From: Mycolicibacterium sp. TUM20985
GTDB taxonomy: Bacteria; Actinomycetota; Actinomycetes; Mycobacteriales; Mycobacteriaceae
Assembly (NCBI RefSeq): GCF_030295745.1
Contig: NZ_AP027291.1
Span: forward strand, 1,550,001-1,614,000
Length of the DNA stretch: 64,000 nucleotides
Reading direction: 5' to 3'
Shown here: positions 2,786-14,282 of the stretch, in pieces
How the letters are laid out: each line of letters opens with the position of its first letter
Numbering within the stretch: position 1 is the stretch's first letter
The notes under the pieces: model-generated
What the model was told of the DNA's origin: nothing
The model's input: the letters and a program-made list of their open reading frames with translations, nothing else
Database searches by the model: none
Position numbers and translations under genes: made by a program

Positions 2786-3931
2786 CTACCGTGCGTCGAC
2801 GGTTGAAGGATCCGGCGCACCGCGGTCGGCACCGGGTGCCTTCAGCGCCGCGTTGCGGGCGGCAATGGCCGCCCACGTGGTCGGCAGCATGCGGTCGCGG
2901 CCGCTGGAAGCACGACTCTGGGCGAGGGTGACGTAGGGGCGCTGCCGGGCCTCGTACCGCGCGAACGCGGTGGCGTGGTCGTTGCCGCACCCTTCGAGTT
3001 CTTCGGCAAGGAAGCGGGCGCCGGTGAGCGCAAGTGAGGTGCCCCGACCGGACAGGTAGGCCGGGCAGTAGCCGGCGTCCCCGACGAGGACGACGCGGCC
3101 GCGTTGCCAGGCCGGCAGGTGGACCTGGCTCGCGGCGGTGAAGTAGAAATCAGGATCGGCGCGCGCGGCATCGAGCAGCTCCGGGATCCGCCACGAGCGG
3201 TATTCCGCGAAGGCGTCGAGGAGGATTTCCTTCTGGGCGTCCAGGTCGTGGTGGTCATAGGCGATCGGTTCCGAGCGGAACTGAAATGCCCCGACGGCCT
3301 TGCCGTTGTACCGGAAGATGCCTGCCATTCGGCCGGGCACGTTGTGTATCGAGTTGGTGCCCTCCGATTGCGCATCGCCGGGGAGATCGGCGAGGGCGAA
3401 GTAGACACCTAGGTGCCGCAGGAAGTGCTTCTCGGGCCCGAACACCAGCCTGCGTACCGCGGAGTGTTGGCCGTCGGCACCGATCACCAGGTCATATCGT
3501 CCGGTGCGGCCCGCGGTGAAACGTACGTCGACGCCGCCGGCGCCGTGGGTCAGTGTCTCGATCGAGTCGCCGAAGCGGATTACGGCAGTGTCCGGGAGCG
3601 CATCGGCGAGGATGTGTACGAGATCCTCACGGAGAAGCTCGATGTCGTCGCCAAAGTCGCTGATCTCCGCCATCGGTATCCCCCCCACCGGCTTGCCGCC
3701 GCTGTCGACGAACTGGGTGAGCTCGGACATCCGGACCCGTCGCTGCTGGATCTTCGGGAGCAGTCCCATCCTGTTCACGGCCTCGATGGCGTCACCGCGG
3801 ATGTCGATGGGTGTGCCGGTGACCCGGAGGTGGCGGGCAGACTCGACGACGGTGACGTCGTGGCCGAGGGTGCCGAGGGTGAGTGTGCAGGCGAGCCCGG
3901 CGATACCGGCTCCCGAGATGAGGATTTTCAG
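2786..3931 (-). CDS. FAD-dependent monooxygenase (PHBH/TetX-like), probable CTG start
   Basis: Flavin monooxygenase of the p-hydroxybenzoate hydroxylase fold, 381 residues if it starts at CTG 3931-3929. No ATG, GTG or TTG lies upstream of GTG 3778 in this frame, yet the frame upstream of 3778 encodes an essential part of the fold: the dinucleotide motif ISGAGIAGL, the strand end VVES, and the FAD-contacting segment TGTPIDIRG. The CTG has a GGAG site six bases upstream. Further on are the DG motif GADGQHSAVRR and the GD motif VLVGDAGYCPAYLSGRG. The family oxidises aromatic compounds, and some members inactivate tetracycline or rifampicin. Together with the downstream exporter and divergent TetR this suggests a xenobiotic resistance or degradation role, which is inference. 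Confidence 0.88.
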   Translation of the reverse strand: MKILISGAGIAGLACTLTLGTLGHDVTVVESARHLRVTGTPIDIRGDAIEAVNRMGLLPKIQQRRVRMSELTQFVDSGGKPVGGIPMAEISDFGDDIELLREDLVHILADALPDTAVIRFGDSIETLTHGAGGVDVRFTAGRTGRYDLVIGADGQHSAVRRLVFGPEKHFLRHLGVYFALADLPGDAQSEGTNSIHNVPGRMAGIFRYNGKAVGAFQFRSEPIAYDHHDLDAQKEILLDAFAEYRSWRIPELLDAARADPDFYFTAASQVHLPAWQRGRVVLVGDAGYCPAYLSGRGTSLALTGARFLAEELEGCGNDHATAFARYEARQRPYVTLAQSRASSGRDRMLPTTWAAIAARNAALKAPGADRGAPDPSTVDAR

Positions 3932-4014
3932 TGTGCGCTCCAGATTTCGCTGAGGTCGGGGTCGATCGGATCGGCGGATCAGACGCCGAACCCGCGGCGG
4001 AGCGACGTCCCTGC

Positions 4015-4039
4015 TTAAAAAGACAAAATGTTGCTTTAA
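4015..4039. promoter_or_regulatory. Candidate TetR operator
   Basis: In the divergent gap between the monooxygenase and tetR lies a 25-base symmetric pattern, TTAAA-N3-ACA-N3-TGT-N3-TTTAA, inside the only AT-rich patch of the gap. The position, about 80 bases from each start, and the symmetry suit a TetR dimer controlling both directions. No binding data; inference from symmetry and context. Confidence 0.45.
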
Positions 4040-4115
4040 TCAGGACACTACCGATCATCGGCTTGCACGGCAACGCCGCACCTGGCGACAATCGGTCCCG
4101 GGCAGAGAACGGAAT

Positions 4116-4745
4116 GTGAGTGTGGTGGGCGGCGCGATGGACAAACGGAGCAGCGATCGGCCGCCCGCGCGGCGCCCCGGCGGCCGCAACGCGCGGGTGC
4201 GCGCGCGAATCCTCGACGCTACGGCCGAGCTCGTGGCACGCGACGGCATCGCGGGCTTCCGCTACGAGGAGGTCGCCGAGCTCGCCGGCGTACACAGGAC
4301 CAGCGTGTACCGAAATTGGCCCGACCGCGAGGAGCTGGTCACCGAGGCGCTGTTGCAGTACGCCGAGGACCTCGCGTCCATCGCCGACACCGGCGACCTC
4401 CATCGCGACCTGGTGGACTATCTGATGGCCCTCGCCGGGGGCCTGGACACGCCGTTCGGCCGGGCGCTCGAACTGGCGATGCAGCCCACCCGAGAAAACC
4501 CCGCGGTTCGGCAGACGGTCGCCAACATCCTCGAGCAACGCGGAGCAGACACGCAGCGGCGGGTGAACCTCGCCGTCGGCCGGGGCGAGCTGCCACCGGT
4601 CGACAGCGTCTTCCTCGGCGAGATGCTTTCCGGCCCGGTACGCCTGATCGTCAACCGCGGCATACGACCCTTCACCCTGATGGACGCGGAGCGCATCGTT
4701 GACGTGGTGCTCGCCGGCATCCGTGCCACGACACCGCATGTCTGA
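4116..4745 (+). CDS. TetR/AcrR family transcriptional regulator
   Basis: Predicted repressor of about 209 residues. A basic N-terminal extension is followed by the TetR helix-turn-helix: ARILDATAELVARDGIAGFR, then YEEVAELAGVHRTSVYRNWP. The C-terminal ligand domain is of the TetR_C type and lacks recognisable specificity residues. GTG 4116 and ATG 4137 are both possible starts; neither has a strong ribosome site, and the second loses nothing conserved. It is divergent from the flavin monooxygenase-exporter operon and most likely represses it. The candidate operator is at 4015-4039. Confidence 0.9.
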   Translation: MSVVGGAMDKRSSDRPPARRPGGRNARVRARILDATAELVARDGIAGFRYEEVAELAGVHRTSVYRNWPDREELVTEALLQYAEDLASIADTGDLHRDLVDYLMALAGGLDTPFGRALELAMQPTRENPAVRQTVANILEQRGADTQRRVNLAVGRGELPPVDSVFLGEMLSGPVRLIVNRGIRPFTLMDAERIVDVVLAGIRATTPHV

Positions 4746-4850
4746 GCGCTCGCGACCCCGGAAAACACTTTCCGTCGTCGAGAACCGGGAACCCCTCCGG
4801 GTGGTAACGGACTCAACGTCGTTCATCAAGCGCGCCTATGGTCGGGTGCC

Positions 4851-5063
4851 ATGACCGATCTCAGTGGGAAGTCGCGCGAGACCCTGGTAGCCGAACTGGT
4901 CAAGTTCGATCGCAAGAACGTCGTCGCCCAAGCGCAATTGCACGACCTGGACCCCGACGACACCGACGACCGCGTGATGGCCGAAGCCATGGGCAAGGTG
5001 GCCTACACCGAGCGCAAGCACCGCGAGGTCCTCGCCGAGCAGGAGAAACGGGGCACTGCGTAA
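4851..5063 (+). CDS. Small charged hypothetical protein (70 aa)
   Basis: A 70-residue, highly charged and probably all-helical protein with no membrane segment or cysteine (MTDLSGKSRETLVAELVKFD at the start, then a helix rich in Glu, Lys and Arg). I do not recognise a family. A TATGGT hexamer eight bases before the ATG could serve as the -10 of an almost leaderless transcript. It is convergent with the MFS gene that ends at 5111, and isolated from the TetR cassette. Confidence 0.6.
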   Translation: MTDLSGKSRETLVAELVKFDRKNVVAQAQLHDLDPDDTDDRVMAEAMGKVAYTERKHREVLAEQEKRGTA

Positions 5064-5110
5064 CGAGGGTGAACGACGAGCGGAACTCACTGAGCCACGG
5101 TGGGCCTACC

Positions 5111-6364
5111 TCAACTCCCGACCCGATTGGCCGAGGCAACGTCGGCCGTATAGCCGGCGGACTTGGCCTCAGGTTCGAGGTCTACCAGTGCTCGGGACAG
5201 GGCGACGGTGATGAGGACGACTAGCCACACGGCGATGATGGTGAGGCCGGCCGCGATGGGCGAACCGTACTCGGCAACGACCCCGGCCAGGCCGATGCCC
5301 GCTGGAGTAGCGACGTGTAGGCATGCGTTCTGCAGACTGAGCACCCGACCGCGGACCGCGTCCGGGATGCGTTCTGCCTGAAGGACTCCGAGCACCGCTC
5401 CCTGCACGGCGACGGCAACACCGAGCAGTGCGGCACCGACGAACACCACTGCCGGCGAGGCCAGCGTCGCGATCAGCACGAAGCCGGCCGTCGTCCCAGC
5501 CAGTGCGGCGGACACCCAGGACCAGCGTTTCCCGTTGGCGCCGATGATTGCGAAAATAGTTGTCCCGGTTAGCATTCCGGCAGCGAGCGAGGTCAGGACG
5601 AATCCAAGCAGGTCCGGCCGTGCGATGGCGCTGAAGTACAGTGGCAGCACCAGGCCCTGCAGCCCGCCCAGCGTCACCGCCATGCCTACCGTCAGAGCGA
5701 CGGTGCCGGTCAGAAGACGACTGCGGCGTAGCACCGCGGCACCTGACCCGAACTGCGCCCGCGGCGAGTCTCGTTGGTGGGGGCTGGCAACGACGGCGCC
5801 AAGGCGATGTGGCATGGCGGCGGTGAGCAGCGCAGCGGCACCGGAAGTTGCCGCGGTGACGAGCAGGACCGCTGTGCCGTCGAACAGCGTGAGCAAGGTG
5901 CCGGCGGCTGCGGGTCCGATGATCAGTGCCATCGAGGTCATCGACTGGCGCAGGCCCACCAGTCGTTCCAGTGGCATGCCGGTGTGTCGGGCCACCGCCG
6001 GGGCGAGTACCTGCCGCGCAGTCATTCCCGGGACGTCGCCGAAGGAGCCAATGATCGCGAGTGCGATCAGCGACCACAGGTTCAGGCCCCAGAGCACGTC
6101 GACCAGCGGGACGGCGCCGACCGCGCCAGCCGAGACGACGTCGGCGAGTATCGAGCACGATCGGCGGTTGACTCGATCCAACAGGACACCGGCGAACAGC
6201 CCGACGAGCAGCGCTGGTGCTGCCGTCGCAATGGAGACTGCTCCCATACTCAACGGGCTCAAGCCTGTCTGTAGGACGATCAGGGGTAACGCGACGGCGA
6301 GAATTCCGTTGCCGAGCAGGCTCAGGAAGTGCGAGCCGAGGTAGACGATCGCGACTCGTGGCAT
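5111..6364 (-). CDS. MFS transporter, 12-TM (MFS_3/enterobactin-exporter-like)
   Basis: Inner-membrane exporter of 417 residues. Its start is MPRVAIVYLGSHFLSLLGNG. The loop 2-3 motif appears as GLFAGVLLDRVNRRSCSILAD. The overall layout fits the MFS_3 group that includes enterobactin and macrolide exporters. The ATG at 6364 is supported by an unusual promoter exactly six bases upstream (AGTCAA at 6396-6401 read as TTGACT on the minus strand, 19-bp spacer, -10 at 6371-6376). The same promoter is found at the divergent S9 peptidase and at a second S9 peptidase near 10.8 kb. This places the exporter in the presumed MerR regulon. Substrate unknown. Confidence 0.87.
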   Translation of the reverse strand: MPRVAIVYLGSHFLSLLGNGILAVALPLIVLQTGLSPLSMGAVSIATAAPALLVGLFAGVLLDRVNRRSCSILADVVSAGAVGAVPLVDVLWGLNLWSLIALAIIGSFGDVPGMTARQVLAPAVARHTGMPLERLVGLRQSMTSMALIIGPAAAGTLLTLFDGTAVLLVTAATSGAAALLTAAMPHRLGAVVASPHQRDSPRAQFGSGAAVLRRSRLLTGTVALTVGMAVTLGGLQGLVLPLYFSAIARPDLLGFVLTSLAAGMLTGTTIFAIIGANGKRWSWVSAALAGTTAGFVLIATLASPAVVFVGAALLGVAVAVQGAVLGVLQAERIPDAVRGRVLSLQNACLHVATPAGIGLAGVVAEYGSPIAAGLTIIAVWLVVLITVALSRALVDLEPEAKSAGYTADVASANRVGS

Positions 6365-6370
6365 GCGTCC

Positions 6371-6401
6371 AGCAGAAACTGTGACGCTGCGGCGGAGTCA
6401 A
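6371..6401 (-). promoter_or_regulatory. MerR-type promoter/operator A (MFS gene)
   Basis: Read on the minus strand: TTGACT, a 19-base spacer containing CGCCGCAGCGTC, a poor -10 TCTGCT, then six bases to ATG 6364. The long 19-bp spacer is the hallmark of MerR-activated promoters. The core matches copies B and C (consensus NYGCCGCWRCGTC). The dyad GAC-N3-GCCGC-N3-GTC is complete here and flanked by T and A. Confidence 0.7.
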
Positions 6402-6405
6402 CCAC

Positions 6406-6436
6406 TTGACTGTGCCGCTACGTCCGGGTGTTCCAT
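6406..6436 (+). promoter_or_regulatory. MerR-type promoter/operator B (S9 peptidase 1)
   Basis: TTGACT 6406-6411, a 19-base spacer beginning GTGCCGCTACGTC, -10 TTCCAT 6431-6436, six bases, then GTG 6443. It lies only four bases from operator A and faces the other way. Geometry and core are shared with copies A and C. Confidence 0.7.
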
Positions 6437-6442
6437 CGAATA

Positions 6443-8707
6443 GTGACGCTCAACGACACAACACAGACACAGATTCACTTGACGGACTCCGACTACGCGC
6501 GTGCTGAGCAGATGCTCGCCCCCTACCGGATGCGGCGGGTGCCCGGAAGTTCGATACAGCCACAGTGGTTTTCCGAGGGTAAGCGATTTTGGTATCAGGT
6601 GGGGACGCGCTTCATCGTGGTGGATCTCGATGGTGGCGGTCGCCGCGACGCGTTCGACCACGATCGGTTGGCAGCTGCACTGTCGCTGGCGTCTGGCCAC
6701 GCAGTGAGTGCCGCCGACCTACCCATCACGGCCGTCGAGGTTGGAGAATCGTTGCGGTTCAGTGCATTCGAGTCGCGGTGGGCGTGGTCGGACGACGCGG
6801 GCACGTGCGTTCAGCTCGACGGTGACGAACCGTCTCCGTTCGGCGAGGTGGTGTCCCCGGACAAGTCTTGGGTGGCGTTTCGCCGGGACGGCAACATCTG
6901 GGTCCGGAGTCTGGATCGTGAGCAGGAGTTCCCGCTCACCGACGATGCCGAGCCGCAGTTCGACTACGGCGGGTTGCCCGATGCCACCGGGATGCGGGCG
7001 CTGATGCGACTGTTAGGTCTGCCACCGCTTTTCCACGTGTCGTGGTCGCCGGACTCGACCCGAATCCTGGTGCAGCGCATCGACCAACGCGACCTGCCCG
7101 AACTGGTGCTCGTCGAATCGTCTCCCCGCGATGGAGGCCGCCCGGTGGAGCACCGCACCCGCTACCCGATGCCCGGGGAAGAGGCGCAAGCGACGATGTC
7201 GTGGACGGTCCTGGACGTCGCCGAGCGCACCGTGGTCCGACAGCAGGACGAGCCGACCGTAATCACCCACCCGACTGCCATCGTGTACGCGTGGTGGACT
7301 GGGAAGGCGGGCGAGGCGGTGCACTTCCTGCGTCAAGCCCGCGATGCCCGCACACTGGAGCTGCGGCGTCTCGATCCCGCCAGCGGCGTCACCACCACGT
7401 TGATCAGTGAGACCGGTGAAACCCGGGTCGACCCGACTCCGCAGCTGGGCGACCCGGCGATGGTGCGGGTACTGGACTCCGGCGAGATCCTGTGGTGGTC
7501 GCAGCGTGACGGCTGGGGACACCTCTACCTGTATTCGGCTGATGGGCTACAGGTCACGCAGGTCACCATGGGGCAGTGGCTGGTACGCAGCCTGCTCTGG
7601 GTCGATGAAGATCAGCGCCAGGTGTGGTTCCTCGCGGGCGGGCTCCTCGAGCACGACCCCTACGTCCGCCAGATCTGCCGGATCGGTCTCGACGGCACCG
7701 GGTTCACCCGACTGACCGACGACCACCTCGACCACGACGCGGTGAGCCCAGACGAGGGCGGCTACCTCGTCGACCGAGCCTCCACGTCGAGCCAGCCGCC
7801 CCGTTCGGAGGTGCTCGACGGTGACGGGCAGGTTCTGGTCGAGCTCGAATCTCCCGACGTGGCTGCCCTGGAAGCCCTCGGCTGGAGTCCCCCCGAGCGG
7901 TTCCGCGCGACCGCCGCCGACGGCAAGACCCCGATCTACGGCCTGTTGTGGCGACCGCATGGTTTCGATCCGCAACGGCGCTATCCGGTGATCGAGCACG
8001 TCTATCCCGGGCCGCAGAACTTCCGGGCTGGCCCCTCGTTCAACGAGATGCACTACGGCGAGCCGGAGGCGTACGCCGCCCTAGGGTTTGCCGCGGTTGC
8101 GATAGACGGTCGGGGTACCGCGGGGCGTAGCAAGGCCTTTCACGACCACTCCTACGGTGACATGGGCAATGCCGGTGCCTTGGACGACCACATCAGCGCC
8201 ATCCGCGAACTGGGCCACCGGTATCCCTGGCTCGACACCGAGCGGGTCGGGATCACCGGCCAATCCGCAGGCGGCTTCGCCGCCGCCCGTGCTCTGCTGA
8301 TGTACCCGGAGTTCTACCGAGTCGCAGTAGCGGTGTCCGGCAACCACGACAACGGCGTGAACCTGACGATGTGGGCCGAGCACTACCACGGCGACGCCAG
8401 CGACGAGGGCAAGCGAGCCATCTCCAACGTAACTCTGGCCGCCAATCTGGAGGGCAAGCTGCTGCTCATCCACGGGGAGCTCGACGACAATGCGCATACC
8501 TATCAGACGATGCGCCTCGTCGATGCACTCATCAAGGCGGACAAGGACTTCGACATGTTGCTCATCCCGGGGGCCGAACACGCCCTGGTCGGCCGCCAGC
8601 ACTACTTCCTACGACGAACCTGGGACTACTTCACCCGTCACCTGCACGGCTCCGAGCCACCTACGTATCGGCTCGCGCCGTTGCCGATGCCAGCGCTAGG
8701 GGGCTGA
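6443..8707 (+). CDS. S9 family peptidase, DPP-IV-like (serine peptidase 1)
   Basis: Cytosolic serine peptidase of about 754 residues with the dipeptidyl-peptidase IV layout. An N-terminal beta-propeller (about residues 80-480) is followed by an alpha/beta-hydrolase peptidase domain. The nucleophile is in GQSAGGF, the acid in GELDDNAH and the histidine in PGAEHAL. No signal peptide is seen. The frame is open from GTG 6428, but GTG 6443 lies exactly six bases after the -10 of promoter B, so a leaderless start there is preferred. The family removes dipeptides or cleaves after proline or alanine in short peptides. It shares its promoter type with an exporter and a second S9 peptidase, suggesting a common inducer, perhaps a peptide compound (inference). 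Confidence 0.92.
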   Translation: MTLNDTTQTQIHLTDSDYARAEQMLAPYRMRRVPGSSIQPQWFSEGKRFWYQVGTRFIVVDLDGGGRRDAFDHDRLAAALSLASGHAVSAADLPITAVEVGESLRFSAFESRWAWSDDAGTCVQLDGDEPSPFGEVVSPDKSWVAFRRDGNIWVRSLDREQEFPLTDDAEPQFDYGGLPDATGMRALMRLLGLPPLFHVSWSPDSTRILVQRIDQRDLPELVLVESSPRDGGRPVEHRTRYPMPGEEAQATMSWTVLDVAERTVVRQQDEPTVITHPTAIVYAWWTGKAGEAVHFLRQARDARTLELRRLDPASGVTTTLISETGETRVDPTPQLGDPAMVRVLDSGEILWWSQRDGWGHLYLYSADGLQVTQVTMGQWLVRSLLWVDEDQRQVWFLAGGLLEHDPYVRQICRIGLDGTGFTRLTDDHLDHDAVSPDEGGYLVDRASTSSQPPRSEVLDGDGQVLVELESPDVAALEALGWSPPERFRATAADGKTPIYGLLWRPHGFDPQRRYPVIEHVYPGPQNFRAGPSFNEMHYGEPEAYAALGFAAVAIDGRGTAGRSKAFHDHSYGDMGNAGALDDHISAIRELGHRYPWLDTERVGITGQSAGGFAAARALLMYPEFYRVAVAVSGNHDNGVNLTMWAEHYHGDASDEGKRAISNVTLAANLEGKLLLIHGELDDNAHTYQTMRLVDALIKADKDFDMLLIPGAEHALVGRQHYFLRRTWDYFTRHLHGSEPPTYRLAPLPMPALGG

Positions 8708-8780
8708 GTTTTGGTAGAGCAGTGGTCAGAACCCATGGATGAGCCTCGGCGAAGGCCAGACACGAGCAAGGGGATTCGCG

Positions 8781-10082
8781 ATGGAACGGGATGCTGTCAC
8801 GACTGGTATGACGGTGATGCAGATGCTGCAGGCGGGCCGGTTCGCCGATGTCTGCGAGCTGCTCGTCCCGGCGCTGCGCGAGCTGGTCTCGCCAGACACA
8901 TTGCGGGCCCCCTGGCAGGGATTGATCGCGGCGCACGGCCCGGTCACGCTGGTCGGTACACCGTTGAGTGAGTCGGCCGGTCCGAACAAGACGATCGTGC
9001 AGATTCCCGTGACGTGTGAACGCGGCGCTATCACCGTGGTCATGGCGATCGACAAAGCGGGCAGCGTGGCGAGTCTGCAGTTCGCTCCGCCGGAAGCGAT
9101 TCAACCGTGGCAACCGCCGCCCTACGTGGACCCGACCAGCTTCACCGAGCACGAAGTCACGGTCGACTCCGGGCCGCTGGCGACACCGGGCACGCTGAGC
9201 CTGCCGAAGTCGCTGCGTCGGCTGCCGGCCATCGTGCTGCTCGCCGGTTCCGGGCCGCTCGACCGGGACGCGACACTTGGCCGCAACAAAGTGATGAAGG
9301 ACCTCGCGTGGGGCCTCGCGAGCCGGGGAATCGCGGTGCTGCGCTTCGACAAGGTCACCTACACCCACGGCGATTCGCTGGCTGGTGTCATCGACTTCAC
9401 CGTGATCGACGAATACGTGCGGCCCGCGGTCGCGGCGGTTCGGCTGTTGCGGGAGCACCCATCGGTCGACGCCGCGCGGGTGTTCCTGCTCGGTCACAGC
9501 CAGGGCGGCACCGTGGCCCCACGTATCGCAGCCGCCGAACCGGCCGTCGCGGGGCTGGTCGTCATGGCCGGCGCCACACAGCCACTGCACCACGCGGTGG
9601 TGCGCCAGTTTCGTTACCTCGCAGCCCTTCGTGAGCCTGGGGCGGACGTCGCCACCGATCCGGCAGTGCAGACGATTACCGGGCAGGCCGCGCTGGTCGA
9701 CAGCCCCGCCTTATCCCCTTCCACACCAGCCCGCCTGTTGCCATTGGGCGTCCCCGCCCCGTATTGGTGCGATCTACGCAGCTATGACCCGGTCGCGATG
9801 GCCGCGGAGCTAGACAAACCGATGCTCATCGTGCAAGGCGGACGCGACTACCAGGTGACCGTCGCCGACGACCTCGTCGGCTGGCAGACCGGCCTCACTC
9901 ATCGCAGCGACGTCACCATCCGCATCTACGATTCGGACAACCACTTGTTCTTTCCGGGCGCCGGACCATCCACACCCGCCGAATACGAACCGGCGCAACA
10001 CGTCGATGAAGCCGTCGTCGCCGACATCGCCGTCTGGTTTGCCCGCGGCGGCGAGCCTGACCAGACTCATGACTCTCGCTAA
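8781..10082 (+). CDS. Alpha/beta hydrolase with N-terminal DUF3887-like domain
   Basis: Predicted hydrolase of 433 residues. The first 110 residues resemble the DUF3887 domain that often precedes this hydrolase type. The alpha/beta hydrolase core follows, with the serine elbow LLGHSQGG, acid QGGRDYQV and histidine DNHLFF. ATG 8781 has AAGGGG seven bases upstream; the open frame to 8739 is not needed. It begins 73 bases after the DPP-IV-like gene on the same strand, with no copy of the MerR-type promoter in between, so it is probably co-transcribed. Its stop codon overlaps that of the convergent merR gene. Ester, lactone or peptide hydrolysis are all possible. Confidence 0.85.
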   Translation: MERDAVTTGMTVMQMLQAGRFADVCELLVPALRELVSPDTLRAPWQGLIAAHGPVTLVGTPLSESAGPNKTIVQIPVTCERGAITVVMAIDKAGSVASLQFAPPEAIQPWQPPPYVDPTSFTEHEVTVDSGPLATPGTLSLPKSLRRLPAIVLLAGSGPLDRDATLGRNKVMKDLAWGLASRGIAVLRFDKVTYTHGDSLAGVIDFTVIDEYVRPAVAAVRLLREHPSVDAARVFLLGHSQGGTVAPRIAAAEPAVAGLVVMAGATQPLHHAVVRQFRYLAALREPGADVATDPAVQTITGQAALVDSPALSPSTPARLLPLGVPAPYWCDLRSYDPVAMAAELDKPMLIVQGGRDYQVTVADDLVGWQTGLTHRSDVTIRIYDSDNHLFFPGAGPSTPAEYEPAQHVDEAVVADIAVWFARGGEPDQTHDSR

Positions 10083-10801
10083 GCCTGCAGGAGCTCATTC
10101 GCCCGGCGAAGTACGTCGAGTTGGGCCGCGTTGTACAGCTCCGCTACCGCTGCCGCGATGGTCTCATCGGCGAAGTGGGCCCCTCCAGGGGCGTCGGTTC
10201 GCGCTTCGGGCAAGCCGGGGTGCGCCGCACGCACCGCCCGGATGTGCGGGACGAGGTGTTCGGCAACCTCCTGTCGGGTCGACTCGTCGGCGTCGGCCGG
10301 TAGGTCGTCGAAGACGGCGACCGCAGGCTCGGCCGGGGCATCCTTCAGAAGGTCGGCGTAGACCTGCAGGCCCCGCGGTCCGAGCACGCGACTCAGGACG
10401 ACGACCAGCGAGCGGTCGGCGTCGGACAACGTGGCCACGGTGTCCGGTGCAATGAACTCCGGGGACAGGTCGGTGGGTGCCGAGCTCTGCAGAATCAGCC
10501 CCAGTTCCTCACGCGCCCGCTGCAGCCGTGCAATGGTGGCGGCGAGTTCGGCGTCCAACGCCCGCAGGGCATCTTCTGGGTGATCGCTGGTGTCGCCCAT
10601 GTCGGCGATTTGGGGGAGGGCGAATCCGAGATCGGTGAGTCGTTTGATCCGCACCAGCCGAACGAGGTGAGCGACGCCGTACTGCTTGTAGCCGTTGGAG
10701 TTCCGTTCGGGCTCGGGGAGCAATCCGATCTGGTGGTAGTGCCGCACCGCCCGCAGGCTGGTGCCTGCCAGCTCGGCGATTTCACGGGTGCTCCATGCCA
10801 C
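10079..10801 (-). CDS. MerR family transcriptional regulator
   Basis: Predicted activator of 240 residues. The N-terminal winged-helix MerR domain reads AWSTREIAELAGTSLRAVRH, then the typical NGYKQYGVAHLVRL and the wing/dimer helix. The C-terminal 130 residues are mostly helical, with no cysteine cluster, so it probably senses an organic ligand rather than a metal. GTG 10801 is chosen because related proteins begin at the AWST segment; the frame is open to 10819. It is divergent from S9 peptidase 2, and operator C lies between them. The two further copies of this operator at 6.4 kb suggest it also controls the MFS exporter and S9 peptidase 1. Confidence 0.9.
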   Translation of the reverse strand: MAWSTREIAELAGTSLRAVRHYHQIGLLPEPERNSNGYKQYGVAHLVRLVRIKRLTDLGFALPQIADMGDTSDHPEDALRALDAELAATIARLQRAREELGLILQSSAPTDLSPEFIAPDTVATLSDADRSLVVVLSRVLGPRGLQVYADLLKDAPAEPAVAVFDDLPADADESTRQEVAEHLVPHIRAVRAAHPGLPEARTDAPGGAHFADETIAAAVAELYNAAQLDVLRRANELLQA

Positions 10802-10830
10802 TGCTCCAGTGTGGCCCACGCCGACCGGAC

Positions 10831-10861
10831 TTGACTATGCCGCAACGTCCGGGTGTGTCCT
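10831..10861 (+). promoter_or_regulatory. MerR-type promoter/operator C (S9 peptidase 2)
   Basis: TTGACT 10831-10836, a 19-base spacer starting ATGCCGCAACGTC, -10 TGTCCT 10856-10861, six bases, then ATG 10868. Its conserved block is nearly identical to copy B 4.4 kb away. The distance from TTGACT to the start codon is 37 bases in both. This copy also has flanking arms CCGGAC 10825-10830 and GTCCGG 10847-10852. Confidence 0.75.
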
Positions 10862-10867
10862 GGTGAC

Positions 10868-12763
10868 ATGGCAACACACGAACACCTTTCCGTCGACGAT
10901 CTGTTTCGTTCTCCGACTCGGGCCCTGGCGACCATGTCGCCGGACGGCACCAGGATCGCCTACCTGGCGCCGTGGAAGGACCGCCTGAATGTGTGGGTAC
11001 ATAGCGTTGATTCCGATGGAGACGCACGATGCATCACCGCCGACGAAACCCGCAGCGTGGTCAACTATCAGTGGACCGACGATCCGCGGTGGATGCTCTA
11101 TACCCAGGACAACGGTGGCGACGAGAACTGGCACGTCTATCGCATCGATCTGACCGACCCGTCAGCGGCTGCCGTCGACCTCACACCGTTCCCCGGGGTC
11201 CGGACGTATTTCGAACTGCTGGCCGGACGCCCCGGCAAGGCGCTGGTCGGCATGAACAGGCGCACCCCGGAACTCGCCGACGCCTATGAACTCGACATCG
11301 CCACCGGCGAACTGACCCTGCTCGCCGAGAACCCCGGCAAGGTCGCCGGGTGGTTCGCCAGCCGCAACGGCGATCTGTTCGCGCTCTCGACCACCGTCAA
11401 GGGCGACGTCGAGCTGTCAACCTGGGAGCCGGCAGAGCGCACCCTGCGGTCCATTGCGCTCTACGACGGCGCCGACTACACGGTGGGGATCTGGCCCATG
11501 GCCGTCACCGCGGATGGCAAGGGCCTGCTGCTCGGCTCGAACCGGAACCCGGACCGGACGACGCTGATACGGCTGGACATCGCCACCGGCGAAGAGACCG
11601 ACGTCGACAGCCATCCGACCCTCAGCATCGACCCGAGGGCCGCGGTTTCTCCGACGCTGCCCTCGCCCCTCATCCTCAGCCAACGGACGGGTGACCTACT
11701 CGGGGTGCGCTATCTCGGTGAGCGACAGGTCATTCGCACACTGGATCCTGAATTCGCCGACGTGCTCGCCAATCTGGAAAAGCTGTCTGACGGCGACGTA
11801 TCCGCGATCTCCTCCGATGACGCAGGCCGGCTCTGGGTGGTCACCTTCACCCACGACCGTCAACCCGGCGTGACCTACTTCTACGATCACACCACCGGGC
11901 AGAGCCGGGAGCTGTTCCGCCCCTTCCCGCATCTGAATGCCGCGACGCTGGCACCCATGACACCGGTCACGATCCGTTCCCGCGACGGGCTGGACCTGCA
12001 CTCGTACCTGACGTTGCCAGTCGGTCTCGAGCCGCAGGGTCTGCCGATGGTGCTCGCGGTGCACGGCGGGCCGTGGGCGCGCGACACCTGGGGCTATCAA
12101 CCCGATGTGCAACTGCTGGCCAACCGTGGATATGCGGTGCTGCAGGTCAACTTTCGCGGCTCCACCGGCTACGGCCAAGGATTCGTCAAGGCGGCGGTCG
12201 GCGAGCTCGCCGGCAAGATGCACGACGATCTCATCGACGCGGTGAACTGGGCCGTCGAGCAAGGCGTTGCCGATCGCGATCGGGTGGCGATCTATGGGGG
12301 CTCCTATGGCGGTTACGCCGCGCTGGTCGGCGTGACCTTCACCCCGGATGTGTTCGCGGCGGCAATCGACTACGTGGGCATCTCCAGTCTGGCGAATTTC
12401 ATGCGGACCCTTCCTGACATCGCGCGGCCGCACCTGGCCAACAACTGGCACCTGTTCGTAGGTGACCCCGACATTCCGGAGCACGAGGCGGACATGCTGG
12501 CCCGTTCGCCGATCACGCGGGTGGATCAGATTCGCACCCCGCTGCTGGTGATCCAGGGCGCCAACGACTCTCGCGTCGTCAAGGCCGAATCAGACAACCT
12601 CGTGGAGGCGCTACGCGACCGCGGGGTCGGCGTCGAGTACATGGTCAAAGACGACGAGGGCCACGGTTTCCTCAACCCGGAGAACGTGATCGACATGTAC
12701 CGACTGGTCGATCGATTCCTCGCCGAGCACCTGGGCGTTTGGCGCAAGGAGCTCACGGCATGA
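10868..12763 (+). CDS. S9 family peptidase, prolyl-oligopeptidase/acylaminoacyl type (serine peptidase 2)
   Basis: Cytosolic serine peptidase of 631 residues. An N-terminal propeller (about 1-370) is followed by a peptidase S9 domain. The catalytic serine is in GGSYGGY, the acid in QGANDSRV and the histidine in EGHGFLN; the oxyanion segment is VHGGPWARD. ATG 10868 falls six bases after the -10 of promoter C, so the mRNA is probably leaderless; the frame is open from GTG 10853. The downstream DUF3159 gene overlaps its stop (ATGA), so the two are translationally coupled. A second S9 enzyme under the same promoter type as the first suggests successive processing of one class of peptide. Confidence 0.93.
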   Translation: MATHEHLSVDDLFRSPTRALATMSPDGTRIAYLAPWKDRLNVWVHSVDSDGDARCITADETRSVVNYQWTDDPRWMLYTQDNGGDENWHVYRIDLTDPSAAAVDLTPFPGVRTYFELLAGRPGKALVGMNRRTPELADAYELDIATGELTLLAENPGKVAGWFASRNGDLFALSTTVKGDVELSTWEPAERTLRSIALYDGADYTVGIWPMAVTADGKGLLLGSNRNPDRTTLIRLDIATGEETDVDSHPTLSIDPRAAVSPTLPSPLILSQRTGDLLGVRYLGERQVIRTLDPEFADVLANLEKLSDGDVSAISSDDAGRLWVVTFTHDRQPGVTYFYDHTTGQSRELFRPFPHLNAATLAPMTPVTIRSRDGLDLHSYLTLPVGLEPQGLPMVLAVHGGPWARDTWGYQPDVQLLANRGYAVLQVNFRGSTGYGQGFVKAAVGELAGKMHDDLIDAVNWAVEQGVADRDRVAIYGGSYGGYAALVGVTFTPDVFAAAIDYVGISSLANFMRTLPDIARPHLANNWHLFVGDPDIPEHEADMLARSPITRVDQIRTPLLVIQGANDSRVVKAESDNLVEALRDRGVGVEYMVKDDEGHGFLNPENVIDMYRLVDRFLAEHLGVWRKELTA

Positions 12764-13416
12764 CCGAGGCAGTCACCGATGACCGGGTACCGACCTTGCT
12801 CGAGCGGATGGGCGGTGTGTCGGGACTGGTGGTCGGCGCCGTACCGACCTTCGCCTACGTGATCGCGAATGCGATCGCTGGGTTGGACGCGGCGGTCTTG
12901 GTGGCCGTCAGCATCAGCATCGGGCTGATCGTGCTGAGGAGAATCCGCAAAGAGTCGATCCAGCCGGCTGTCTCCGGACTGCTGGGTGTGGTGGTCGCGT
13001 CGCTGATCGCGTTCTACACCGGATCAGCAGAAGGCTTTTTCCTGCCGGGCATCTGGGTGAGTCTGGTGATGGCCGTCGTCTTCGCGGCCTCCGTGCTGGT
13101 GCGACGGCCCCTGGTGGGAGTGATTTGGAACGTGCTGACCAGTGCCGGTGAGCGGAAATCATGGCGCACCGAGAAGGGCGCACTCCACGCGTTCGACATT
13201 GCGACGCTGGCGTTGGTGGCGGTCTTCGCCGCGAGGTACGTCGTCCAGGACTGGCTCTATGATGCCGGCTCCACTGGCTGGTTGGCCTTCGCGCGAATCG
13301 CGATGGGGTATCCGATGCTCGCTCTGGCTCTACTCGTCACCTACTGGGCGGTCCGGCATGCACGCAGAAAGCTCGACGTGGTGACCGACGAACAGTACGA
13401 GAAGCTGGCGACGTGA
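12760..13416 (+). CDS. DUF3159 family membrane protein
   Basis: Integral membrane protein of 218 residues with about six hydrophobic helices. It contains the family-like stretches ERMGGVSGLVVGAVP, IQPAVSGLLGVVVASLIAFY, TGSAEGFFLPGIWVSLV and RRPLVGVIWNVL. ATG 12760 overlaps the TGA of the S9 peptidase and has AAGGAG eight bases upstream. The function of DUF3159 is not established. Coupling to a cytosolic peptidase under a MerR-type promoter hints at transport or membrane anchoring of the process. Confidence 0.88.
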   Translation: MTEAVTDDRVPTLLERMGGVSGLVVGAVPTFAYVIANAIAGLDAAVLVAVSISIGLIVLRRIRKESIQPAVSGLLGVVVASLIAFYTGSAEGFFLPGIWVSLVMAVVFAASVLVRRPLVGVIWNVLTSAGERKSWRTEKGALHAFDIATLALVAVFAARYVVQDWLYDAGSTGWLAFARIAMGYPMLALALLVTYWAVRHARRKLDVVTDEQYEKLAT

Positions 13417-13422
13417 CGGTGC

Positions 13423-13866
13423 TTACTCCATCGCATAGCGGCTCACGGATTCCGGGTGGATGACGAGGCGAACCTGATCTTCGGCCAGGATGCCGGCGAG
13501 GTCGCCGGAACGTGCCGGATCGTCGAGGTCCCAATAACGCGCTGCGAGGCGCGCGGAGAGTTCGCGCGCTCCGTCGGGTTCCACGACGGTGCGGCCGGTG
13601 ACCGTCACCCACCGTTCGCGTTCACCGACCGGGGCGGCGACGACGATCGAGGCGCGAGGGTCCCGGCGCAAGTGACGAACCTTGAGAGTATCTGGGCCGG
13701 TGAACAATTGGATCGTGCCTTCGGCGGTAGCCTCGAACCACACCGGCCGAGGCTGGGGTGGTCGTGGCCCTGCGGCAACGGTCAGGAATCCGTACAGGGG
13801 GCGTCGGAGGAACTCGAGGTCATCCGCGGTCAGCAAAGCGGTCAGCGACGCGACGTCGGCGGTCAT
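13423..13866 (-). CDS. PPOX-class split beta-barrel protein, probably F420- or flavin-dependent
   Basis: A 147-residue protein of the pyridoxamine 5'-phosphate oxidase-like fold. The N-terminal segment LEFLRRPLYGFLTVAA, the strand PRPVWFEATAEGTIQLFTG and the cofactor-binding HLRRDPRASIVVAAP are typical of the TIGR-type F420-dependent PPOX proteins of mycobacteria. These reduce or bind F420, FMN or heme-like cofactors; the choice cannot be made here. Its ATG overlaps the stop of the RidA gene (TCAT at 13863-13866), so it is the second gene of a coupled pair, presumably under the divergent MarR regulator. Confidence 0.87.
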   Translation of the reverse strand: MTADVASLTALLTADDLEFLRRPLYGFLTVAAGPRPPQPRPVWFEATAEGTIQLFTGPDTLKVRHLRRDPRASIVVAAPVGERERWVTVTGRTVVEPDGARELSARLAARYWDLDDPARSGDLAGILAEDQVRLVIHPESVSRYAME

Positions 13867-14282
13867 ATTTGACCGACGATGGCGGTAACCCGGATCTCGA
13901 CACGCATCTTCGGGGCCCCTAGGGCGGCGACGCCTATCTCGGTCCAGATGGGCGCTTGGTCGCCCATCCGCTTGCGAAGTTGCTCCACCATGACTCGGTT
14001 GTGATCGTCTCCGATCGAGTCGCTAGAAGTGGGGATGTGGAACGAGTCCACGGCGATGACGTCACCCCAGGTAGCGCCGGCCAGGGCGATGGTGCGCTCG
14101 AGGTTGTCGAATGCCCGAACGATCTCGTCCTCGAGGGCCTCGGGGAAATTGAAGTCGTCGTCCCAACCCCCTTGCCCGGAGGTCTCGACACGGTCGCCGA
14201 TTCGGACCGCCTGGTGGTAGTGCATGTTGGCCAGCTGAGTGTCGCCGTACCCGGGGGTGGCGAAGAACTCCGTCGTTGACAT
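13863..14282 (-). CDS. RidA family protein
   Basis: A 139-residue protein of the YjgF/YER057c/UK114 (RidA) fold, which classically hydrolyses reactive enamine/imine intermediates. Typical are the N-terminal segment MHYHQAVRIGDRVETSGQGG, the middle ALEDEIVRAFDNLERTIALA and the C-terminal strand MRVEIRVTAIV. The usual catalytic Arg of the archetype (G-x-R-V/I-E near the end) appears as KMRVEIRV. AAAGGA lies seven bases before the ATG. It heads a two-gene operon with the PPOX protein and is divergent from marR across a gap with two palindromic operators, so it is likely repressed by that MarR. Confidence 0.9.
   Translation of the reverse strand: MSTTEFFATPGYGDTQLANMHYHQAVRIGDRVETSGQGGWDDDFNFPEALEDEIVRAFDNLERTIALAGATWGDVIAVDSFHIPTSSDSIGDDHNRVMVEQLRKRMGDQAPIWTEIGVAALGAPKMRVEIRVTAIVGQI

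Follow-up and report, generated by a model that had tools for sequence, protein, structure and literature searches.

A candidate MerR-activated regulon of serine hydrolases, a membrane protein and an exporter in Mycolicibacterium sp. TUM20985

In a 64,000-nucleotide stretch of the Mycolicibacterium sp. TUM20985 genome (contig NZ_AP027291.1, positions 1,550,001 to 1,614,000; hereafter the window), three genes of a six-gene cassette, encoding an MFS transporter and two S9 peptidases (S9A and S9B), are preceded by the same promoter arrangement, i.e. TTGACT, a 19-base spacer, a hexamer of the form T-N4-T, six bases and the start codon. The site at each promoter is a 21-bp dyad in the 19-bp spacer between TTGACT and the hexamer. 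Computation on the sequences strongly supports three linked proposals: that these are MerR-type promoters, that they belong to one regulon, and that the merR gene in the same cassette probably encodes its regulator. In the best overall explanation the neighbouring MerR protein would bind the three sites and activate the regulon, whose hydrolases and pump would handle the ligand; we consider this account as a whole probable and its regulatory part alone very probable, and we give about even chances to the proposal that MerR senses a natural product, peptide-like or an ester, which is cleaved by the S9 and EstD-like hydrolases and exported by the MFS transporter. A preliminary description of this DNA had arrived at the MerR-type promoter, the single regulon and the neighbouring regulator, all of which gain strong computational support here; its cassette for peptide sensing, export and degradation is kept as a plausible proposal, since the same site precedes other families of serine hydrolases elsewhere (S33 TAP-like and one S15-type).

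Results

The three promoters in the host genome

The repeated arrangement, which the preliminary description had given for all three genes with identical spacing, can be read directly in the sequence, and both the spacer length and the distance to the start codon are the same at the MFS, S9A and S9B promoters (Table 1). The MFS and S9A promoters stand back to back with four bases between their TTGACT boxes, and the S9B promoter lies 30 bases from the merR start. The core sequence reported earlier is exact at all three sites, and its extent had been understated, in that the nearly identical S9A and S9B sites also share CGTCCGGGTGT beyond it. The EstD-like hydrolase gene of the window has no site of its own and sits behind S9A.

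A search of the genome and its relatives for the motif had been recommended, and in the 6,054,104-base genome the only three exact matches to TTGACTNNGCCGCNNCGTC are those at the cassette promoters. There are no one-mismatch copies and 25 two-mismatch copies genome-wide, and the reversed-pattern control, allowing up to 2 mismatches, gave 16 matches; the exact count expected from the base composition of the window is 0.026 per genome, or 0.0003 per 64 kb. Occurrence of the motif at many unrelated genes, which had been named as the outcome that would speak against a regulon, was looked for across the genome and was not seen. A promoter scanner found no promoter with a 16-18-bp spacer between positions 5000 and 13500, which is weak evidence, since 0.7 would be expected there by chance.

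Co-occurrence of merR and the site in the genus

Among 198 sampled genomes of the genus, merR (called at E up to 1e-60) is present in 31. The genus form of the site, TTGACYRTGCCGYNNCGTCCKRGTG with up to one mismatch, was found in 29 of the 198, all of them merR-positive, and in none of the 167 merR-negative genomes (reversed control 0). The remaining two merR genomes, G803 and G825, carry a palindromic form at merR in addition to S9B sites. The Fisher p for this co-occurrence is 9e-33, uncorrected for kinship, and physical linkage accounts for part of the association. A looser pattern searched in 100 relatives matched in 9 of 54 merR-negative genus genomes, with 10 matches for the reversed control over all 100 genomes, and was rejected as too loose to be used alone.

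Genes that carry the site

Target genes were counted in the 31 merR genomes, in regions of 8-20 kb round merR and at unlinked loci. S9A, called at E up to 1e-200, occurs in 19 of the 198 genomes, all merR-positive, and its 20 copies all have the site: 18 within one mismatch, the copy in G754 with two mismatches, and the second copy of G756. Six of these copies, each with a site, lie at least 91 kb from merR or on another contig: those of G050 and G752 are at least 1.9 Mb away in contig coordinates, that of G756 is 91 kb away with its second copy elsewhere, and those of G799 and G844 are on a different contig from merR. The site is also present at 5/5 MFS genes and at 21 of 23 S9B genes, both misses being pieces of one broken gene in G780, where a second, broken merR/S9B copy (L246:3207-4606) with an intact-looking one-mismatch site stands beside an intact cassette. 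EstD-like genes have a site of their own in 0/3 cases; in G733 a one-mismatch site that lacks a start codon at 37 bases is followed closely by a shortened EstD-like gene. Of the 33 merR hits (31 genes and two pieces), six have the site themselves.

The gene for the DUF3159 membrane protein is present in the regions of 28 of the 31 merR genomes and has its own site in nine of the 28. It does so in 9/9 cases when no S9B gene precedes it and in 0/19 when it lies behind S9B, so that in regions lacking S9B the promoter directly adjoins DUF3159.

S9B-like genes occur in 66 of the 198 genomes, 35 of them merR-negative, and S9B was therefore rejected as a marker of the regulon. Close paralogues of S9B, 64-74% identical, make up this wider set, many without merR and without the site. 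Of about 51 S9B paralogues outside cassettes, 18 (68-74% identical) were examined through usable upstream regions, 12 from merR-negative and six from merR-positive genomes, one further, wrongly extracted region being set aside; a site within one mismatch was found in none of the 18. The site thus follows the genes and not the genomic place.

MerR geometry of the site

MerR promoters have 19-20-bp spacers that are essential for regulation, and a long, strict spacer is the mark of activation by DNA distortion, as stated in passages of PMC9909328; at 21-bp MerR sites the dyad is centred about 7 bp from the -35 box, according to a passage of PMC5045206. The sites described here have spacers of this length, with 7 bases between TTGACT and the central base of the dyad. 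The T-N4-T hexamer stands at exactly 19 bases in 53/53 genus sites and in 59 of 60 distinct sites outside the genus, although it was not included in the search pattern for the latter; at positions shifted by 1 to 3 bases the hexamer pattern fits 0 to 2 sites. Dyad arms match in at least 8 of 10 positions in 47 of the 60 distinct sites outside the genus and in 4 to 10 positions in genus sites. Genus sites at S9A, S9B and DUF3159 show a conserved asymmetry, their right dyad half usually reading CGTCCGGGTG or CGTCCGAGTG and not the palindromic CGGCAYRGT; the MFS sites lack this asymmetry.

In 48 of the 53 genus sites an in-frame start codon lies 37 or 38 bases from the first base of TTGA, the five exceptions being the S9B genes of G050, G752, G756, G825 and G844. 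Because six bases separate the hexamer from the start codon, leaderless transcripts are predicted; such transcripts are frequent in mycobacteria, with 24% given for M. smegmatis in a section of PMC6448022.

The site and its targets beyond the genus

The nearest relatives of the merR product come from eight named mycobacterial loci and are 67-74% identical. M. canariasense and M. iranicum are among the named species with the cassette. In 47 named loci with a merR relative, a full site was defined as a match to TTGASYNTGCCGYNNCGKC with no more than one mismatch and a T-N4-T hexamer at 19 bases; it was found in 34 loci and in none of the same loci after shuffling, and the sites adjoin merR, DUF3159, S9A, S9B and MFS genes. 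Outside the genus the site is a near-palindrome of the type ACYRTGCCGC-N-GCGGCAYRGT.

A search by DNA pattern alone gave 30 sites in 18 of 298 genomes of the order and two sites in one of 396 genomes of the phylum (reversed control 0 in both); the two samples overlap, and the phylum sample is useful only as a negative control. The 32 genes behind these sites are merR (9), S9B (4), S33 TAP-like (4), DUF3159 (3), VTT-like genes under Pfam's cut-off (2), DUF4177 (2), an unnamed family of about 207 residues (2), S9A (1), MFS (1), P450 (1) and three that could not be resolved, so S9/S33-type hydrolases lie behind nine of the 23 sites that are not at merR. Targets in the named loci include S33 TAP-like genes (L073, L078, L081 and L083), an S15-type gene (L075), SDR genes at one-mismatch sites (L065 and L083), DUF4177 (L083) and GPP34 (L074). 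Two further candidates, an S33 gene in L053 and an S15-type gene in L064, were not counted as targets, as the possible site at each failed the T-N4-T test. G702 has three sites (L141, L152 and L157) without a clear target, with LuxR-, YbaB- and WXG-type genes nearby. The family of about 207 residues, which has no Pfam or NCBIfam match, is found directly behind the site at L130:1530-2150, L143:832-1455, L072, L073 and L159:4159-4701, and a relative of it lies near merR on a Streptomyces plasmid.

Plasmid-borne relatives of the regulator (48-58% identical) were found in six records from Streptomyces, Prescottella, Pseudonocardia and Tsukamurella, and TAP-like hydrolases lie near the regulator in two of the four plasmid regions examined. 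On the plasmids L159 (7770-7798) and L160 (4447), variant dyads TTGACCGTGCCCCAGGGGCACGG with T-N4-T at 19 bases stand near more distant MerR relatives and perhaps represent a sister specificity.

The regulator, the enzymes and the pump

The merR product has the helix-turn-helix and coiled coil of the family; its structural model has a predicted local distance difference test (pLDDT) score of 88.4, and residues 1-108 align to MerR structures. A profile of the sensor domain gave no match among solved chains (best E 0.15). A defence-system assignment was rejected, as PADLOC returned only a short helix-turn-helix match to mads_1 (36.5 bits).

S9A contains the propeller and the S9 domain, and its Ser-Asp-His motifs are intact in 7/7 aligned sequences. 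In S9B the GGSYGG, Asp and His motifs are intact, and its nearest solved relative is an amino acyl peptidase (5l8s). The hydrolase behind S9A had been called a DUF3887 hydrolase, but the DUF3887 model scores 17.5 bits against a Pfam cut-off of 31.8; its best NCBIfam model is EstD, at 293.5 bits and below the cut-off of 600. The transporter scores 80.7 bits with the MFS_1 model (cut-off 33.4); the NCBIfam model for Tap efflux reached 112.3 of the 625 bits needed, and that for the H+ antiporter 2A0121 also matched below its cut-off.

The genes of the cassette, in the order MFS, S9A, EstD-like, merR, S9B and DUF3159, are listed with the promoters in Table 1.

Table 1. Promoters and genes of the cassette in the window
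Feature	Position	Strand	Details
MFS promoter/operator	6371..6401	minus	TTGACT 6401-6396, spacer 6395-6377, TCTGCT 6376-6371, six bases, ATG 6364; dyad 6398-6378, arm matches 7/10
S9A promoter/operator	6406..6436	plus	TTGACT 6406-6411, spacer 6412-6430, TTCCAT 6431-6436, six bases, GTG 6443; dyad 6409-6429, arm matches 5/10
S9B promoter/operator, in merR/S9B gap	10831..10861	plus	TTGACT 10831-10836, spacer 10837-10855, TGTCCT 10856-10861, six bases, ATG 10868; dyad 10834-10854, arm matches 5/10
MFS transporter gene, exporter-like, 417 aa	5111..6364	minus	PF07690 80.7 bits, over cut-off
S9A, S9 peptidase with DPPIV_N-type propeller, 754 aa, GTG start	6443..8707	plus	PF00930 145.7 bits, PF00326 132.3 bits
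EstD-like alpha/beta hydrolase, 447 aa, behind S9A	8739..10082	plus	PF12146 42 bits; NCBIfam EstD 293.5 bits
merR, 240 aa, GTG start; helix-turn-helix, coiled coil and helical sensor domain of about 120 residues	10079..10801	minus	PF13411 56.5 bits
S9B, S9 peptidase of acylaminoacyl-peptidase/POP kind, 631 aa	10868..12763	plus	PF00326 159.7 bits
DUF3159 membrane protein, overlaps S9B end, start codon uncertain	12739..13416	plus	PF11361 202.1 bits

The cassette is adjoined by genes for a PPOX-type (F420-like) oxidoreductase and a RidA-like protein (13423-14282, minus strand), with the site at neither. On the other side of the cassette, a FAD-binding monooxygenase frame (2786-3778, minus strand) aligns to family models from about model position 50 onward, which means that its N-terminus is absent or was misread; the preceding frame (3792-4829) has no Pfam match.

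Discussion

We propose that the MerR protein whose gene adjoins the third copy of the site binds all three copies and thereby activates the genes for the exporter and the two S9 peptidases, together with those that follow them. By analogy with the family, ligand-free MerR would hold the over-long promoter silent, and kinking and untwisting of the spacer by the ligand-bound form would let RNA polymerase engage both hexamers. The S9 and EstD-like hydrolases would then cleave the ligand and the MFS pump would expel it. The mechanism is of a known kind.

Several observations weigh against this proposal. Kinship and linkage inflate the co-occurrence of merR and the site. Genus sites have a degenerate right dyad half, with 5/10 arm matches at S9A and S9B of the window. 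The second position of the hexamer is A in only one of 113 sites (genus and outside), and ANNNT is found in 79% of M. smegmatis promoters according to a section of PMC6448022. With A so rare where ANNNT is usual, the promoter would be weak alone, and such a weak hexamer would fit tight dependence on an activator. Outside the genus, ATG or GTG stands at 37 or 38 bases in only 15 of 60 sites, and leaderlessness would mostly be a genus trait. Thirteen of the 47 named loci (L053, L061, L062, L076, L090 and L092-L099) have no site, eight of them being those with the most distant merR relatives, and four plasmid loci have variant sites only, one with one mismatch and the others with two. Targets that are not peptidases (VTT-like, P450, SDR, DUF4177 and GPP34) also occur.

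The same MerR regulon might serve membrane or envelope stress, sensing lipophilic or membrane-active agents, with DUF3159, VTT-like and GPP34 proteins as the core of the response. DUF3159 is indeed the most persistent partner (28 of 31 merR genome regions, with its own site in 9/9 cases when first), and VTT-like genes (under Pfam's cut-off) and GPP34 genes lie under the site elsewhere; as the serine hydrolases are constant too and DUF3159 is a family without known function, mentioned in two open-licence papers, we regard this alternative as unlikely. A nutritional regulon, in which MerR senses free peptides and induces intracellular scavenging peptidases while the MFS transporter exports excess amino acids or small peptides, would account for the two S9 peptidases of the cassette and for the secreted-looking S33 TAP-like proteins and the single S15-type hydrolase that this site precedes in other genera. 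The patchy distribution of the cassette (31 of 198 genus genomes) and the P450, SDR and VTT-like targets elsewhere argue against it; nutrients are not the usual signals of MerR sensors, and we consider such a role quite unlikely. That MerR binds the sites and only represses, the ligand simply releasing it, is very unlikely: some MerR-type proteins, e.g. CvkR, are described as repressors, but 112 of the 113 sites keep T-N4-T at a strict 19 bases, a spacing that marks activators working by distortion in the account of PMC9909328 cited above. A plain constitutive promoter that was copied along with the cassette and is not acted on by MerR would explain the near identity of the S9A and S9B sites and their usual position near merR, but is highly improbable given the absence of the site from the 167 merR-negative genomes and from 18 S9B paralogues, the conservation of the dyad in the 19-bp spacer across genera, the site at S9A genes far from merR and, weakly (0.7 expected), the empty result of the scanner for 16-18-bp spacers at 5000-13500.

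The activation of one regulon by the neighbouring MerR is thus the reading that we prefer. The preliminary description knew of no system of this make-up, and we likewise found no description of the regulator subfamily, the site or the make-up of the regulon in the open-licence literature. A guess becomes a testable regulon with one regulator, one site and named targets in several actinomycete genera, with relatives of the regulator also on plasmids, and DUF3159 and several unnamed proteins gain a first functional context. If the ligand is found, the system could be used as a drug- or peptide-responsive biosensor, and its -10 box, which lacks the -11 adenine, is informative about the share of promoter opening that a MerR activator supplies. 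In the most far-reaching version, which we put forward tentatively and hold to be possible but doubtful, a so far undescribed subfamily of actinomycete MerR proteins, with a new kind of helical sensor domain, would control serine peptidases, DUF3159 and further membrane proteins as well as an exporter as one scattered regulon. Its promoters would form a new class (19-bp spacer and T-N4-T -10 box without the -11 adenine) that stays silent unless reshaped by the activator, and the system would provide an inducible degrade-and-export immunity against the peptide antibiotics of competitors.

Comparison with known systems

Among characterized enzymes, S9A resembles WmDPP4, a bacterial DPP-IV (5yp1), whose propeller and S9 domain align to S9A residues 136-734 (E 2.2e-53). 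The Glu-Glu motif of the DPP-IV propeller anchors the substrate N-terminus. In alignments with 5yp1 and homologues this motif is absent from S9A in 7/7 sequences, and the earlier label "DPP-IV-like" holds for the fold and the catalytic triad and fails for the Glu-Glu motif.

Among MerR regulators, formaldehyde-responsive NmlR, which controls adhC and estD according to a table in PMC9909328, resembles the present system in having a target esterase named estD, a likeness in name; the window MerR scores 20.9 bits with the NmlR model (cut-off 175), and the matched structures, judged by their titles, have no sensor domain. Matches to the multidrug activators BmrR and Mta cover only residues 1-108, the sensor domain of the window MerR does not align to theirs, and the window regulon differs from theirs in being dominated by hydrolases. 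The best sequence match among solved structures is the N-terminal domain of TipAL (2vz4, E 2.5e-15), the thiopeptide-responsive MerR protein of Streptomyces with an autoregulated antibiotic response, as outlined in a portion of PMC7762955. PF07739 (TipAS) has no match in the window MerR at E up to 1 and none in the whole genome, and identity of the sensor domain with TipAS by sequence was rejected (hhalign probability 0.1 against 12 TipAS sequences). TipAL and the window MerR share the MerR helix-turn-helix and coiled coil, behind which each has a helical sensor domain; they differ in that the latter has no TipAS domain by sequence and its proposed regulon is composed of hydrolases, DUF3159 and a pump.

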